From Candidatus Hydrogenedentota bacterium (lineage in GTDB: Bacteria > Hydrogenedentota > Hydrogenedentia > Hydrogenedentiales > CAITNO01), in contig CAIXUF010000424.1 in assembly GCA_903922535.1 (NCBI GenBank), forward strand, positions 1 to 6,343: DNA of 6,343 nt, written 5' to 3'. Below, one piece after another: positions 2-5,624 of the stretch. Under the pieces are notes generated by a model. The model saw only the letters and a program-made list of their open reading frames with translations, was not told the origin of the DNA and searched no databases. Position 1 is the stretch's first letter; the number at the start of each line of letters is the position of its first letter. The position numbers and the translations under genes are program-made.

Positions 2-2227
2 GCCCCCAAGGCCGGGCTGCTCCTGGCGGAAAACGGCGAAGCGAAGGCGGCCATTGTGGTCGGCGCGAATGCCTCGCCGAGCACCCGCTACGCGGCGGAG
101 GAGCTGCAGCGCTTTCTTAAAGAGATCACGGGGGCCTCGTTCGATCTGATTACCGACGCCGAACCGGTGCGCCCGTCGGAAATCATTGTCGGCGCAAACG
201 ACCGCATGTACGGGCTCAACCTCTCCGTCGATTTTCAGCGGCTCGGCGCGGAAGGCTATGTGCTGCTGACGAAAGGCACACACCTCGTGATCGCCGGCGG
301 CGAGCCGCGCGGCACGCTCTACGGGGTGTACGGCCTGCTTGAGGACCACCTTGGCTGCCGCTGGTTCACGCCGACCATCAGCACCATCCCCAAAGCGTCC
401 ACGCTGACCGTGGAGAATCTCGACGAACTGCGCATCCCTGCGCTGGAATACCGCGAGCCCTTTGTCATGGACTGCTTCGACGGGGACTGGTGCGCGCGCA
501 ACCGCATGAACAGCACCGCAGGCCGACTGGAGGCGAAACACGGCGGCAAGGTGAACTACTGCGGGTTCGTCCATACAGCGAACGGGCTGGTGCCCCCGGA
601 GGTGTATTTTGACGGGCACCCCGAATACTTCGCGCTGGTCAAGGGTGTGCACGTGAAGGACCGCACCCAGCTTTGCTGCACCAACGACGACGTGGTGCGG
701 ATCGTGACCGAGGAGGTGCGCAAGCGGATGCGCGAGCATCCGGAGGCGACCGTGTTCTCCGTGTCGCAGAACGACTGGGCCAACTACTGCACCTGCGACA
801 AGTGCGCCGCCCTGGCCGCAGCCGAGGGCAGCCAGATGGGACCCATGCTCTACCTGGTCAACAGCGTCGCCCGAGCGGTGCGTGACGAGTTCCCCGACAA
901 GCTGATCGACACGCTGGCCTACCAGTACACGCGCAAGCCGCCAAAGACGATGCGGCCGGAACCGAATGTCATTATCCGCCTGTGCAGCATCGAGTGCGAC
1001 TTCTCCCACCCCTTTGAGGAGCGCGCGACCAAGGAGAACGCCGCATTCTGCAACGACCTGGAAGGCTGGGCGCAGGTGAGCAAGCGGCTCTGGGTGTGGA
1101 ATTACAACACGTCATTCTCGCACTACCTGACACCCTTCCCGAACCTGCGCGTGCGCGGGCCGAACATCCGCTACATGATCAAGAACAACGTGCGCGGCAT
1201 CTTCGAGCAGGACGTGTACACGACGCTCAACGGCGAGTTCAACGGGTTGAGCGGCTACCTGGGCGCGAAGCTGCTTTGGAACCCGCAGTACAACGAGGAC
1301 TACGCCGCCACCGAGTTCCTGAACGCCGTCTACGGGAAGGCGGCAACCCCCATCTGCATGTATCTCAACCTCATCCACGACGCAGTGAAGGACCCCAAGG
1401 TCAACATGGGCATTTGGATTGGCCCTGATTTCAAGTGCTTCACGCCCGAACTGCTGAAACGCGCCGACGAGCTGTTTGACTCGGCGGAAAAGGCCGTGGC
1501 CGACGCGCCGGAAACGCTGGAGCGCGTGCGCGTGGCCCGGCTCAGCCTCGACTACACCCAAATCGAGCGCCTGCGCAAGCACGCCTCGGATGCGTATGAA
1601 TTCGACCACAAGAACTACACGGTGCACATGAAACCCGAGTTCGCCCGGCTCGTGAACCGTTTCTTCGAGGTGGCTGAACGCAACGGCGTCACCCAGATTC
1701 GCGAGAACGACGGCGCCATGCCGAAGTACAAGGACATGGTCATGGCATCGTTCAAGTCGGACGGGGGGACTTTCCCGGTGCAGCCGGCCCTGGACGGCAA
1801 GGGCATCAAGCCCGGCCTCAAGTGCGCCTACTACGAGAAGACGCTGGACAAGCTGCCCGATTTCGCCACACTGACGGCAAACAAGACGAGCGTGGTGGAA
1901 CGCATCTCACTGGAACCGCTCGTCAACAAGGACGGCGGGGCGCTGCATTTTGAGGGATTTGTCCACGCGCCGACCGACGGCCTCTACTCCTTCGGGCTGC
2001 GATCGAACGACGGCAGCAGAATGTTTGTCGGCGGCAAAGAGCTGATCGACAACGACGGCCTGCACAAGGCCGAGACGGAGACCGCGTTTGTGGCGCTGCG
2101 CAAAGGCTGGCATGCCATTGTGGTTGATTATTTCCAGGCAGGCGGCGATTTGGACCTGTTGCTGACCTGGTCCGGCCCCGGCGTCAAGAACCAACCGGTG
2201 CCCGCCGAGGCGTTCGGGCACAAGTGA
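2..2227 (+). CDS. DUF4838 domain protein with C-terminal PA14-like domain (5' truncated by window edge)
   Basis: The reading frame is open from position 2 to the TGA at 2225-2227, giving 741 residues. The GTG at 56 is an internal valine, because the protein reads continuously upstream through an ordinary beta-strand lead-in (LLLAENGEAKAAIVVGANAS), so the true start is outside the window. Residues about 20-125 resemble the N-terminal domain found before alpha-glucuronidase and hexosaminidase-type barrels (AAEELQRFLKEITG, then GTLYGVYGLLEDHLGCRWF). Residues about 195-465 look like DUF4838, including SQNDWANYCTCDKC with a CxCxxC cluster at 263-268 and a following LAYQYTRKPP. Residues about 604-739 form a PA14-like beta domain (FEGFVHAPTDGLYSFGLRSNDGSRMFVGG), a type that often binds carbohydrate. 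It is probably a secreted glycan-acting protein, but any signal peptide is outside the window and DUF4838 has no reaction I can assign. The gene converges on the GH116 gene across a repeat-bearing gap. Confidence 0.85.
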   Translation, partial: APKAGLLLAENGEAKAAIVVGANASPSTRYAAEELQRFLKEITGASFDLITDAEPVRPSEIIVGANDRMYGLNLSVDFQRLGAEGYVLLTKGTHLVIAGGEPRGTLYGVYGLLEDHLGCRWFTPTISTIPKASTLTVENLDELRIPALEYREPFVMDCFDGDWCARNRMNSTAGRLEAKHGGKVNYCGFVHTANGLVPPEVYFDGHPEYFALVKGVHVKDRTQLCCTNDDVVRIVTEEVRKRMREHPEATVFSVSQNDWANYCTCDKCAALAAAEGSQMGPMLYLVNSVARAVRDEFPDKLIDTLAYQYTRKPPKTMRPEPNVIIRLCSIECDFSHPFEERATKENAAFCNDLEGWAQVSKRLWVWNYNTSFSHYLTPFPNLRVRGPNIRYMIKNNVRGIFEQDVYTTLNGEFNGLSGYLGAKLLWNPQYNEDYAATEFLNAVYGKAATPICMYLNLIHDAVKDPKVNMGIWIGPDFKCFTPELLKRADELFDSAEKAVADAPETLERVRVARLSLDYTQIERLRKHASDAYEFDHKNYTVHMKPEFARLVNRFFEVAERNGVTQIRENDGAMPKYKDMVMASFKSDGGTFPVQPALDGKGIKPGLKCAYYEKTLDKLPDFATLTANKTSVVERISLEPLVNKDGGALHFEGFVHAPTDGLYSFGLRSNDGSRMFVGGKELIDNDGLHKAETETAFVALRKGWHAIVVDYFQAGGDLDLLLTWSGPGVKNQPVPAEAFGHK

Positions 2228-2429
2228 CGAACGACTGACAGGCTGGGCCACGGCAACACCTGACCGCGGCAAGACAACGAACATCATGGACGAGATGGAC
2301 ACAATGGACCGTATGGACGATATGGACGGTATGGACTCTTCATCCTGTCCATTCAGTCCATTTTGTCCATAGCGTCCATGCCGTCCATTCCCAGAGACAC
2401 ACAACCAACAGCCACCGCCAATCTTGGCA
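2228..2429. other. Convergent intergenic region
   Basis: These 202 bases lie between the stop codons of the two convergent glycan-related genes. Bases 2228-2285 and 2389-2429 show no gene and no classical intrinsic terminator with a T-tract. A small palindrome, GCCAA-TC-TTGGC at 2417-2428, sits just past the GH116 stop on the minus strand and is too short to call a terminator on its own. The centre is filled by the inverted hexamer array described separately. Confidence 0.8.
2286..2388. repeat. Inverted array of ATGGAC / GTCCAT hexamers with 9-base period
   Basis: The left arm has six perfect ATGGAC copies starting at 2286, 2295, 2304, 2313, 2322 and 2331. The right arm has five perfect GTCCAT copies starting at 2347, 2356, 2365, 2374 and 2383. 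Within each arm every copy is separated by three variable bases (left: gag, aca, cgt, gat, ggt; right: tca, ttt, agc, gcc). CTTCAT at 2338-2343 is in phase with the right arm and matches four of six bases, so it may be a decayed sixth copy. Folded in register, left copies 6 to 2 pair with right copies 1 to 5, giving five 6-bp helices separated by 3x3 internal loops around a 10-base loop (2337-2346). The spacers are mostly not complementary. Its place between two convergent stops suggests a bidirectional terminator-like or REP-like role, which is inference. I do not recognise it as a named family. Confidence 0.9.
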
Positions 2430-5400
2430 TCACGCCACCGATGCCGCATCTCCGAGCGTGGCTTTTACCTCCAGCACCGCGCCGGTCTTGAGCACCGTGT
2501 CGGCCTTGACGGCAAGCGTCATGCGCCCAACCTGTGTCGCGACTTCCACCGGAAACGCCTTGCCATCCAGCGTGGCCTGCACCGCACCAGCCGACTTGCC
2601 CACCGGCAGGCCGAAGGAGGCTTCCTGAAGCCGCAAGGAACCGCGCACCACTTTCAGCCGGTTGACTTGGTGGCCGTTCTCGCGTTTCTGCTCGAACACG
2701 ACCCATCCCTCCGCCGTGGTGAAGAGTGCGCGGAAATCGTCGGCATTGATCTTGGGGTCAAACCCAATACGGCCCGCCGGACCGTCGTAGTTGAACCCGG
2801 CCAGCGACAGGTAGACGCCCCAACTGGCCATCGCGCGGGCGTAATGGTCACCGCATTCCACCTCGTTGTATGGATTGGCGAGACTGGGCTGATAGCGGTC
2901 GTGCACGGCACGGCAAATGACCATGGCTTCGTCGGTCATGCCCTCGGCGGCCATGTGCCCCGCCACCTGGTACTCGATGCCCGTCCACACCTCCTCGCGG
3001 TACAGCACGCCCTCCTTGAGGTGCTCGCTCTTGGGCCAGGTGCAGGTGAACAGGCCGGCGTGGCCCGGTGTGATGAACCAGCGCTGCGGCGGGTACTTTT
3101 CGTTGAATGGGGCCACGTCGGGCGCCCAGCAGTAGCGCCACACGGACCACAGTGCCTGCTTCACCTTCTCCGGATCGTAGATGTAGCCCAGCCCCAACTG
3201 GTGCGCCCAGCCTTGGCCGAACAACTGGTCAGCCAGGCATCCCGTGCCATACTGCGCCTTGGGATGCTCTTTCAGGTCGACATCCTGAATGAAATACTCA
3301 CCGTTCCACAGGCGGGTTTCCGAGGCCGCACGGCCCTTCTCAAAGATCTCGCGCACTTTCTTGGCGAACTTGCCATCCCCCACCTCGCTGGCCATTTCCT
3401 CGGCCGCGCGCAGCGCGGCAAGGTACAAACTGCCCACGAAGGTGTTGGCGCCGTAGAAGTCGATGTCGTAGGTGTTGGGCTGTTTGTTCTCGATGAGCCC
3501 GTCGTCATTCTCGTCCTGCTTGATGAGATACTGGAGTGCGTGCTTGATGCGCGGCCAGTTGCGCTGGAGGAACTCCGCGTCGGCCGACATGAGGTGCTCG
3601 CGATAGGCCTTGAGCACCGTGCCGCACTGCCCATCGGCGGCGTAGGCGTCGTTGCTGCGGAATCCCACCAGCCCCGTCTCCGGATCAAAGCCGCCGCCGT
3701 CGGCCGTGTCGCGAAAGTCCTGCATCTCGCGAACGCGGCGCGTCAGATCGGGGAAGAGGCGTGCCTCGGAGTGGGAGTAGTTCCAAACGTGGGTGCAGTT
3801 GCCCTCGCAGCAGGTAACGCCCTCATAGGCGTAGAAGCGGCCGTTGGCCCACCATTGGCAGGTGCCCGTGGCCAGCGTGGACACGGTCGAATGCAGCCGG
3901 TCGAGCAGCCAGTAGGGCAGCGTGGAATCGTAGAAGGTGTCGCGCCACTGCCGTGTCCCGGCGGTCAGCGCCTCGTGGTTGTCAAACAGATGCGCCGCCA
4001 CCGCCTGCGCGTCGGCGAAGCGTGTGGCGTAGTACTGGCCATGGGACTGGTTCGGGAAATGCCAGGTCAACGCGAAAACGAAGGTCGCCTTCTCACCCGG
4101 CTTCAGCGCCACCGGTTTCGCTGCCAGCAGCCCCGTGCGCTCGTCGCCGATTTCATAGTCCGCATCGGCCACCACGGGCGCGCCGCCGGGCAGCCCGCCC
4201 GGGTCCGCCGCGGCAGCCCACGCTCCCCCACGCTCCGCCTCGCCCAGGAAGGCCAAGCACATCGTTCCAAAATCCGGCATCCGGCTGAGCGCCGCCGCCT
4301 CGCCGTCGTGCGGCCGGTCAGCAAACTCGATATGGTCCACGTTGACATGGCCCCATCCCTCGGACGCATCGTCAACGATCTCGATATGCGCCTCGCGCCC
4401 CTCCAGTTTCACCACGTTCCAGTGCTGCCAATGAAGGTGCTCCTGGTTCTTGCCGGTCGTCGTGCGCTCCACCTTGCCATCCACGACAAGGTTAATGCAG
4501 GTCCGGTCCTTGTACGCGCCGCCGCCAATAAGGAAATTGATGAAACGCCGCGCAATGGTGAAAGCCGGTGAAATCAGTTTCCCTTTCGGCACGTCGCCGC
4601 CGTTGAAACTGTTCACCAGGCCCGCGCCCGTAAAGCCGTCCACCGGCTGCTGGCCCGGCAGCGCGCCGTGCGCCGGTCCCTTGCCGAAGGCCTCGCCCTC
4701 GGCCTTCCAGTCGCCATAGTCGTCACCCTCGAAGTCGGTGAAGAGTATCCGCTCGCGCCCGGTGTCGCCCGTGTCGGCGGCTTCCTGTTCGGCCGACTGT
4801 TCCGCGGCAAGATTCATCCATGCCCGGCCGTTCCCCTGGCCGAAGCGGATGCTGCGCTGCGCGTGGAACACATCGCCGTTTCGGAACGCAACATAGTTCT
4901 CCAACAACCCCGCGACAGACACTTCCTGGTGCGCCTTGGACACGTTTTCGACCGTGTAGTGGAACAGCGTCGCCGGATAGGACGAGTTTTCCGCATCCAG
5001 CGGGATAAACGGCGAGAAGGCTTCCAGTTCCACCTTCACCGGAGCGGCCGGGTCCGTGTAGTGCACCTGTGCGACGGGATATTCGCCCTTGAACGCCACC
5101 TGCGCGAAGCCGTCCTTGTCCAGCACGCGCCGCACGGGGGAGTCTTTGCCGGACCTTGCCAACACCATGAAGCGCTGATGGCAGGGCTTCTTGTGCGCGC
5201 GCCGTTCATAGGTCGAGCCGGTGGCGCCAATCCACATCGACTCGGCATTGTTGAAGATCTGCCAGCAGCCCAGCGTGCCGTCGCCGCAAAGGTACATCTG
5301 GCCGCTGCCGATGCCGCCGCAGGGCATGCCAATGGCGTCCAAATCCGCCCCACGATAAACTTCCTTCTCGCCGCGCGCATAAAGGCCGCGCACCCACTCG

Positions 5401-5624
5401 GGGGTGAGTTTCTTGTCGCCCGGCACCGGGAAACCCGGCGTCTCCGGCGCGTCAAAGGGCCCCGCCATCGCGATCAGCGGCCGCCCCACCGAAGTCGCCA
5501 GCAGCCCCAACCCCGCCACCTGCATGAACCGGCGCCGGTCCAGCTTCGCCCCACCGCATTTTCCGCCACAACCGCAGCCGCCACTTTGATTAGACTGACC
5601 CTGGGAATTGACCGCATCCGACAT
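2430..5624 (-). CDS. Tat-exported GH116-type (DUF608) glycosidase with inserted beta-sandwich-like module
   Basis: The protein has 1064 residues. I chose the ATG at 5624 because AAGGAG lies seven bases upstream and the Tat signal follows; an in-frame ATG at 5693 would only add a proline/arginine-rich leader. Residues 29-35 (DRRRFMQ) are a twin-arginine motif, followed by a hydrophobic stretch (VAGLGLLATSV) and a possible cleavage site after AMA at 54. Residues about 95-290 and 440-540 look like the GH116 N-terminal beta domain (PCGGIGSGQMYLCGDGTLGC). The alpha-barrel catalytic domain follows at about 560-955. By alignment from memory with human GBA2 (Glu527, Asp677), the nucleophile is Glu607 in CCEGNCTHVWNY and the acid/base is Asp720 in QPNTYD, just after DENDDGLIEN. 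GH116 enzymes are retaining beta-glucosidases, beta-xylosidases and related enzymes; the substrate here cannot be told. Unusual points are an extra module at about 288-436 and a Cys/Gly-rich segment before the Tat motif. It is probably periplasmic or secreted. Confidence 0.88.
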   Translation of the reverse strand: MSDAVNSQGQSNQSGGCGCGGKCGGAKLDRRRFMQVAGLGLLATSVGRPLIAMAGPFDAPETPGFPVPGDKKLTPEWVRGLYARGEKEVYRGADLDAIGMPCGGIGSGQMYLCGDGTLGCWQIFNNAESMWIGATGSTYERRAHKKPCHQRFMVLARSGKDSPVRRVLDKDGFAQVAFKGEYPVAQVHYTDPAAPVKVELEAFSPFIPLDAENSSYPATLFHYTVENVSKAHQEVSVAGLLENYVAFRNGDVFHAQRSIRFGQGNGRAWMNLAAEQSAEQEAADTGDTGRERILFTDFEGDDYGDWKAEGEAFGKGPAHGALPGQQPVDGFTGAGLVNSFNGGDVPKGKLISPAFTIARRFINFLIGGGAYKDRTCINLVVDGKVERTTTGKNQEHLHWQHWNVVKLEGREAHIEIVDDASEGWGHVNVDHIEFADRPHDGEAAALSRMPDFGTMCLAFLGEAERGGAWAAAADPGGLPGGAPVVADADYEIGDERTGLLAAKPVALKPGEKATFVFALTWHFPNQSHGQYYATRFADAQAVAAHLFDNHEALTAGTRQWRDTFYDSTLPYWLLDRLHSTVSTLATGTCQWWANGRFYAYEGVTCCEGNCTHVWNYSHSEARLFPDLTRRVREMQDFRDTADGGGFDPETGLVGFRSNDAYAADGQCGTVLKAYREHLMSADAEFLQRNWPRIKHALQYLIKQDENDDGLIENKQPNTYDIDFYGANTFVGSLYLAALRAAEEMASEVGDGKFAKKVREIFEKGRAASETRLWNGEYFIQDVDLKEHPKAQYGTGCLADQLFGQGWAHQLGLGYIYDPEKVKQALWSVWRYCWAPDVAPFNEKYPPQRWFITPGHAGLFTCTWPKSEHLKEGVLYREEVWTGIEYQVAGHMAAEGMTDEAMVICRAVHDRYQPSLANPYNEVECGDHYARAMASWGVYLSLAGFNYDGPAGRIGFDPKINADDFRALFTTAEGWVVFEQKRENGHQVNRLKVVRGSLRLQEASFGLPVGKSAGAVQATLDGKAFPVEVATQVGRMTLAVKADTVLKTGAVLEVKATLGDAASVA
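4317..4763 (-). other. Inserted accessory module within the GH116 protein (residues about 288-436)
   Basis: This coding segment interrupts the N-terminal beta domain of the glycosidase. It begins near ILFTDFEGDDYGDWKAEG and ends near WGHVNVDHIEFADRP. The pattern (FEGDDYGDW, GLVNSF, SPAFTI, INFLIGGG, CINLVVDGKV, then IEIVD and GWGHVNVDHI) strongly recalls a beta-sandwich module that I remember from GH32-type secreted enzymes of Planctomycetes and relatives. It is flanked by a polar, low-complexity linker (residues 273-290, rich in Ala, Glu and Asp) and by PHDGEAAA. A carbohydrate-binding or structural role is inference. Boundaries are approximate. Confidence 0.7.

Follow-up and report, generated by a model that had tools for sequence, protein, structure and literature searches.

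We analysed a 6,343-nucleotide stretch of DNA from a Candidatus Hydrogenedentota bacterium (contig CAIXUF010000424.1; the whole stretch is called the window here) that carries, between two genes, an inverted array of ATGGAC and GTCCAT hexamers on a 9-base grid. The array is probably one of the scattered copies, lacking a gene, of a repeat system that in full consists of a TIGR04258 gene with arrays of its own hexamer inside and flanking it, and the TIGR04258 protein most likely recognises the array. The pairing of repeat and protein is well supported, whereas we infer binding, mobility and function. An earlier note on the window had proposed a protein-binding site or a mobile repeat, and the TIGR04258 partner makes that proposal more concrete.

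Results

TIGR04258 genes are linked to the arrays

Of ten arrays read inside open reading frames (ORFs), five (loci L010, L072, L095, L100 and L102) lie in genes for one and the same protein, of about 211-227 residues. The TIGR04258 model ('four helix bundle suffix') scored over its NCBIfam cut-off in 6/6 family proteins and TIGR02436 in 5/6; PF05635 (23S_rRNA_IVP) was slightly below its cut-off in both proteins where it was seen and is annotated for 120/120 homologs among the matches listed. The predicted fold is the four-helix bundle of S23 proteins, with 2gsc and 2rld as the closest folds and the accessory protein Avd of diversity-generating retroelements as a possible further match; a PDB sequence search with one TIGR04258 protein gave no credible match. 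The S23 or 23S rRNA intervening-sequence proteins (PF05635, TIGR02436) are thus of the same family as the N-terminal domain of the TIGR04258 proteins. Unlike them, the TIGR04258 proteins also have a suffix domain, and the linker that precedes it is often encoded by an array.

When five of the proteins were used in tblastn searches, family genes were found in 19 of 117 array-selected loci, and in 18 of these the array was inside or close to the gene. A family search found TIGR04258 in 17/18 array genomes, or 19/20 when G009 and G010 are included from the phylum search, and in 42/68 Hydrogenedentota genomes and 0/14 control genomes. We then looked from the side of the gene, examining 120 of 139 family hits, which gave 119 distinct gene loci (60 were hand-picked, and array-rich genomes supplied most of the first 20), with the clade of each gene taken from its best tblastn score to tree members. 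An ATGGAC array lay within 400 bp of 23/56 clade-A genes and of 0/63 others (p=1.5e-9). Any array on the 9-base grid was present at 77/119 gene loci, compared with 15/675 random 1.4-kb windows from four genomes and 1/30 Y1_Tnp loci.

The hexamer follows the protein tree

The tree was built from 73 proteins after the linker had been cut out; 28 of the 101 family ORFs were excluded as duplicates, fragments or broken frames, and hexamer labels were assigned by hand. All ATGGAC genes (22/22) and all GTGGAC genes (4/4) share a clade of 33 (100/100), whose other 7 rows have no called array, and the CGGATC genes (7/7) fall in another clade of 11 (100/99). The labels change 27 times over the tree compared with 42.6 when shuffled, and 0/200 shuffles were as low, on a tree whose bootstrap was not fully settled. 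Array-selected loci supplied 17 of the 22 ATGGAC rows; the five that came from family searches join the same clade as these. The ATGGAC rows span eight phylum names.

Other hexamers on the 9-base grid include TAGGAC, TGGGAC, TCGGAC, GTGGAC, AAGGAC, GAGGAC and CGGATC, mostly with a GGA[C/T] core, and 10-base CACGGAC-type units occur in or around the TIGR04258 genes of L391 (sister genome G009), L403 and L388. Samples of G030 and G069 contain GGAC runs at period 10. Oppositely oriented arrays bracket the gene at L397 and L491, and 34 uniform GTGGAC-type 9-mers stand directly behind the TIGR04258 gene of Oligosphaera ethanolica (L386). The idea that G047, G069 and G070 are rich in dispersed arrays of their own hexamers was not borne out: samples of 135-333 kb held no inverted array, and by a looser count of the same samples G069 had five GGAC-core runs, with none for G047 or G070.

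The hexamer, not the stem, is constrained

With the outer copies fixed, the middle hexamer was exact in 1150/1252 cases in eight genomes, against 9 for the reversed control. Per-base identity of the middle hexamer was 98.5% (6764/6864) and that of the adjacent spacers 59% (2035/3432), at loci that were mostly array-selected. A perfect stem under selection was rejected, as pairing between the spacers of the two arms does not exceed that of a within-genome shuffle: 405/987 vs 422 +- 13 in all 129 inverted arrays, and 309/798 vs 311 +- 11.6 outside the genome AS22 (G011). The earlier note's view that the hexamer rather than the stem is conserved is therefore upheld. Adjacent spacers are identical in 95/477 cases (20%) vs 10% for random pairs, which, together with some uniform runs, suggests that slippage lengthens arrays while the hexamers are held. 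The slippage origin that the note had offered thus contributes, whereas the constraint on the hexamer contradicts neutral slippage.

The loop is 0-36 bases long in the 129 arrays. The polarity ATGGAC-then-GTCCAT (two copies per side, gap of at most 30) gave 249 overlapping matches in 19/20 genomes, and the reverse polarity gave 25, of which 21 were in G019. A universal polarity was accordingly rejected, this genome (Verrucomicrobia; L268-L275) having mostly the GTCCAT arm first and then ATGGAC. Outer flanks extend the palindrome by genome-specific stems in Chlorobiaceae (L040, L054, L099) and in a Chlamydiae metagenome-assembled genome (L021, L070), with stem pairs GAATGTAAGA/TCTTACATTC in L040, GAATGTAGGAT/ATCCTACATTC in L054 and CTAAAGGA/TCCTTTAG in L021 and with paired changes between copies.

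ATGGAC arrays occur widely and patchily

We scanned GTDB contigs for three-plus-three inverted hexamers, counting contig prefixes, as grouped here, as genomes. At least 117 stretches with inverted arrays were found under at least 46 contig prefixes, in at least 12 or so phyla by record title among the matches listed, so that a hairpin of evenly spaced six-letter blocks recurs in many phyla. The groups among those matches are Lentisphaerae, Chlamydiae, Verrucomicrobia, Planctomycetota, Hydrogenedentota, BRC1/Sumerlaeota, Chlorobi, Cloacimonadota, Desulfomicrobium, Kapaibacterium, Anaerolineae and Lindowbacteria. One of the carriers, Oligosphaera ethanolica DSM 24202, is an isolate. Three ATGGAC copies in a row (triplets) occurred in 20/20 whole genomes, 2 to 321 each, with 0 for the reversed pattern; these genomes were chosen for their arrays and are no guide to frequency. 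In Hydrogenedentota, the phylum of the window's nearest relatives, 37/68 genomes have triplets, with 0 to 221 each.

Two inverted ATGGAC arrays (L143:1193-1296 and L173:1758-1830) are on contigs classed as viral. Another (L074:5034-5110) lies in frame inside the protein-kinase domain of a Ser/Thr kinase gene of 1103 amino acids, with the array at residues 244-269 and Pkinase at 22-293. Such an in-frame palindromic insertion in a coding gene resembles the Rickettsia palindromic elements. Those have another sequence and other hosts, and in the present case it is one gene family that mainly carries arrays inside genes.

The window array and its absence from sister genomes

All eleven hexamers of the window array are exact at 2286-2388 (Table 1), and the window holds 14 copies of the hexamer vs 2.35 expected, with a shuffle maximum of 7 (n=200). 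The nine spacers are all different, and 3/12 spacer positions pair across the axis in register. The earlier note had read the array in just this way, as six exact copies and then five inverted ones on a 9-base grid between convergent stops, with differing and mostly unpaired spacers, and we confirm both its coordinates and its account of the spacers. Because the DUF4838 gene (+) ends at 2227 and the GH116 gene (-) at 2430, their stops converge on the array; a class-I (E/Q) tRNA-synthetase gene begins to the right of the GH116 gene. RNA folding of 2276-2400, a step that the note had proposed, predicts a strong hairpin on either strand (-56.1 kcal/mol, z -6.30 on +; -58.1, z -6.05 on -). Rfam gave 0 matches over its gathering score in the whole window, no intrinsic terminator (a GC-rich stem followed by a T run) was found in 2150-2500, and a terminator and promoter scan at the array site had no match.

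Table 1. Features of the window array and its surroundings
Feature	Position	Strand	Details
Left arm, six ATGGAC, 9-base grid	2286..2336	+	starts 2286, 2295, 2304, 2313, 2322, 2331; spacers gag aca cgt gat ggt
Loop, 10 bases, separating the arms	2337..2346	.	
Right arm, five GTCCAT, 9-base grid	2347..2388	-	starts 2347, 2356, 2365, 2374, 2383; spacers tca ttt agc gcc
Intergenic region with the array	2228..2429	.	
Left neighbour, DUF4838 + PA14 protein, 5' end cut by the window	2..2227	+	stop 2225-2227
Right neighbour, GH116 protein (PF04685/PF12215)	2430..5624	-	stop 2430-2432

Aligned flanking blocks (84% nucleotide identity) are 206 bp apart in the window vs 26 in sister genome G009 and 103 in sister genome G024. 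At the orthologous site G009 keeps the gene pair and has no array, and G024 (L308) keeps the convergent gene pair with REP-like hairpins, CGCGGCATCCTGCCGCG and AGGCTGGAAGCCT, in place of the array; in a further genome, G025, the neighbour gene at the site differs. As neither G009 nor G024 has the array at this place, it was gained or lost among close relatives, and arrays are lineage-specific. The earlier note had held that absence from close relatives would count against its proposal; the absence holds at this site, whereas the class of element is widespread.

Arrays lie near gene ends and also between divergent genes

Using a home-made codon-model gene caller, which is rough, we placed the 129 inverted arrays in tandem gaps (33), convergent gaps (24), divergent gaps (24) and within called ORFs (18), the 30 at contig edges being left unclassified. 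Outside AS22, tandem-gap arrays are closer to the upstream stop in 22/26 cases (p=0.0005), with a median of 21.5 nucleotides to that stop vs 98 to the next start, and 15/21 convergent-gap arrays are within 40 nucleotides of a stop. Divergent genes flank 19 of the 66 classified intergenic arrays outside AS22. Translation of eight of the divergent pairs gave several products recognisable by eye, such as those at L029, which we take to be RelA/SpoT-like and alcohol-dehydrogenase-like, while both Chlamydiae pairs were not; at L064 one neighbour is itself a TIGR04258 family gene.

Discussion

Several observations weigh against a repeat system with a TIGR04258 partner. No 9-base-grid array was seen at 42/119 family loci, a few of the 77 arrays that were seen are repeats unlike the GGA core, and an ATGGAC array is lacking near 33/56 clade-A genes, some of which have GTGGAC or a 10-base unit instead. 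Taken singly, the TAGGAC, GTGGAC and AAGGAC labels are not clustered on the tree beyond chance. At L094 the family gene is about 5.8 kb from the array, and G003 (Desulfomicrobium) has arrays and no TIGR04258 match. There was no gene match in 9/37 array-bearing Hydrogenedentota, and the gene was present in 14/31 array-free ones (p=0.013). AS22 has 321 ATGGAC triplets, yet both its gene loci carry other hexamers, and G047 and G070, whose genes do carry arrays, showed no inverted ones in random samples. The TIGR04258 protein has no catalytic domain that we could see, and the window is a 6.3-kb contig, with any partner gene of its source genome outside view; we infer that this genome holds, or once held, a TIGR04258 gene. 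Gene presence is only weakly tied to ATGGAC counts because genes elsewhere often carry the 9-base grid with other hexamers.

The alternative that survives best, although we consider it doubtful, is a resident, non-mobile regulator or nucleoid system, in which the TIGR04258 protein would bind arrays near gene ends, organising DNA or stabilising 3' RNA, and copies would spread only through recombination and the horizontal transfer of pieces of chromosome. This reading and the mobile one share the gene-array pairing and differ in mobility, so the same linkage is expected from both, and a resident system would also fit the constrained hexamers and the nearness of tandem-gap arrays to the upstream stop (22/26 outside AS22). 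It fits less well with the lack of the array at the matching site of G009 and G024, with the range of 0 to 221 triplets across 68 genomes of one phylum, and with the oppositely oriented arrays that bracket the gene at L397 and L491 in the style of a mobile unit.

It is much less probable that the arrays are ordinary repetitive extragenic palindromes (REPs or REPINs) spread by RAYT (Y1) transposases. Y1_Tnp is present in 18/20 array genomes, and among Hydrogenedentota in 24/25 genomes with at least six triplets vs 19/31 with none, but the rank correlation of 0.35 falls to 0.16 after allowing for genome size, and an ATGGAC run was found at 0/30 fetched Y1 loci. In AS22, composite elements with GTAAGCGGTCA / TGACCGCTTAC-type ends (L063, L117) carry ATGGAC arrays, and their end motif recurs at Y1_Tnp locus L258 and near the Oligosphaera array L277. 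That the AS22 Y1 locus shares GTAAGCGGTCA-type ends with an array-carrying element favours a RAYT, and arrays riding in such elements mean that the array and REP-type kinds can overlap. REPs of the GTAG/CGTC super-families are palindromes of 20-40 bp, one end of which bears an unpaired GTAG or CGTC tag; most are intergenic and close to the 3' ends of genes, where the gap is tandem or convergent. By inspection only, no constant GTAG/CGTC tag was seen at the edges of the window array or of the arrays at 117 loci. Unlike REPs, these arrays have a modular 6+3 build, are often inside the partner gene and in many cases lie between divergent genes, and the partner is of a four-helix-bundle family and not an HUH/Y1 transposase. 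The TIGR04258 linkage and the Y1 loci without an ATGGAC run disfavour a RAYT as the sole explanation, even though array positions are in part like those described for REPs in PMC3733652.

The earlier note had suggested a transcription end in both directions or a boundary element; as a general role, such a terminator or boundary where genes converge is very improbable. The predicted hairpin is strong on either strand and 15/21 convergent-gap arrays outside AS22 are close to a stop, but there is no terminator match at 2150-2500, two sister species keep the gene pair without the array, and some arrays lie within coding regions. Since arrays also stand between divergent genes (19 outside AS22) and have no terminator motif, termination is not the general answer. 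A neutral minisatellite from replication slippage is scarcely credible, as the long uniform runs (34 copies of one 9-mer at L386) and the above-chance likeness of adjacent spacers are set against a hexamer shared by unrelated phyla, arms that are inverted in 19/20 genomes, hexamer identity far above that of spacers, and linkage to one gene family.

We return to an array system with a TIGR04258 partner. A basic, S23-like helical-bundle protein would recognise arrays of its own hexamer as inverted, hairpin-capable sites, each protein clade having its own hexamer (ATGGAC in the case of the window). The simplest form of recognition would be a hairpin or phased duplex sites; we favour direct binding to a hairpin, of RNA or single-stranded DNA, over recognition of the duplex. 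The copy in the linker may serve autoregulation or may be the footprint of a unit within its own gene, and the small dispersed arrays would be gene-less copies. The protein, or enzymes acting alongside it, would let the units spread within and between genomes, and this spread may need host enzymes, as no catalytic domain is seen in the protein.

In PMC3733652 and PMC3116915, REP/REPIN-RAYT systems (REPtrons) are described as dispersed intergenic palindromes near gene ends together with a dedicated gene that has its own repeat on its flanks, and species with several repeat families as having repeat-specific units. The present arrays are likewise dispersed, and their candidate partner gene, too, often stands beside arrays of its own hexamer. 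Neither the arrays nor the protein showed homology to REP or RAYT, so the system appears new in its parts and REP-like in its organisation, and we found no report of these arrays, of TIGR04258 or of their pairing in the open-access literature searched. More tentatively, the system might be a non-homologous counterpart of REP-RAYT, in which an S23/Avd-type, possibly ring-forming and transposase-free protein reads hairpin arrays in a switchable hexamer code (a GGA[C/T] core with two leading bases that vary by clade) and has a copy of the code within its own gene, where it is tolerated as a disordered linker. The protein would spread this code across many phyla, perhaps via an RNA or single-strand intermediate.

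For TIGR04258, a family name without a stated function, the arrays are a concrete candidate for its target, and the protein is in turn a candidate partner for an abundant repeat outside Rfam. With clades that have their own hexamers on one grid, the family offers a natural series for studying possible nucleic-acid recognition by four-helix bundles. The arrays may represent a new class of selfish or architectural repeat where annotation shows intergenic DNA or odd protein linkers.
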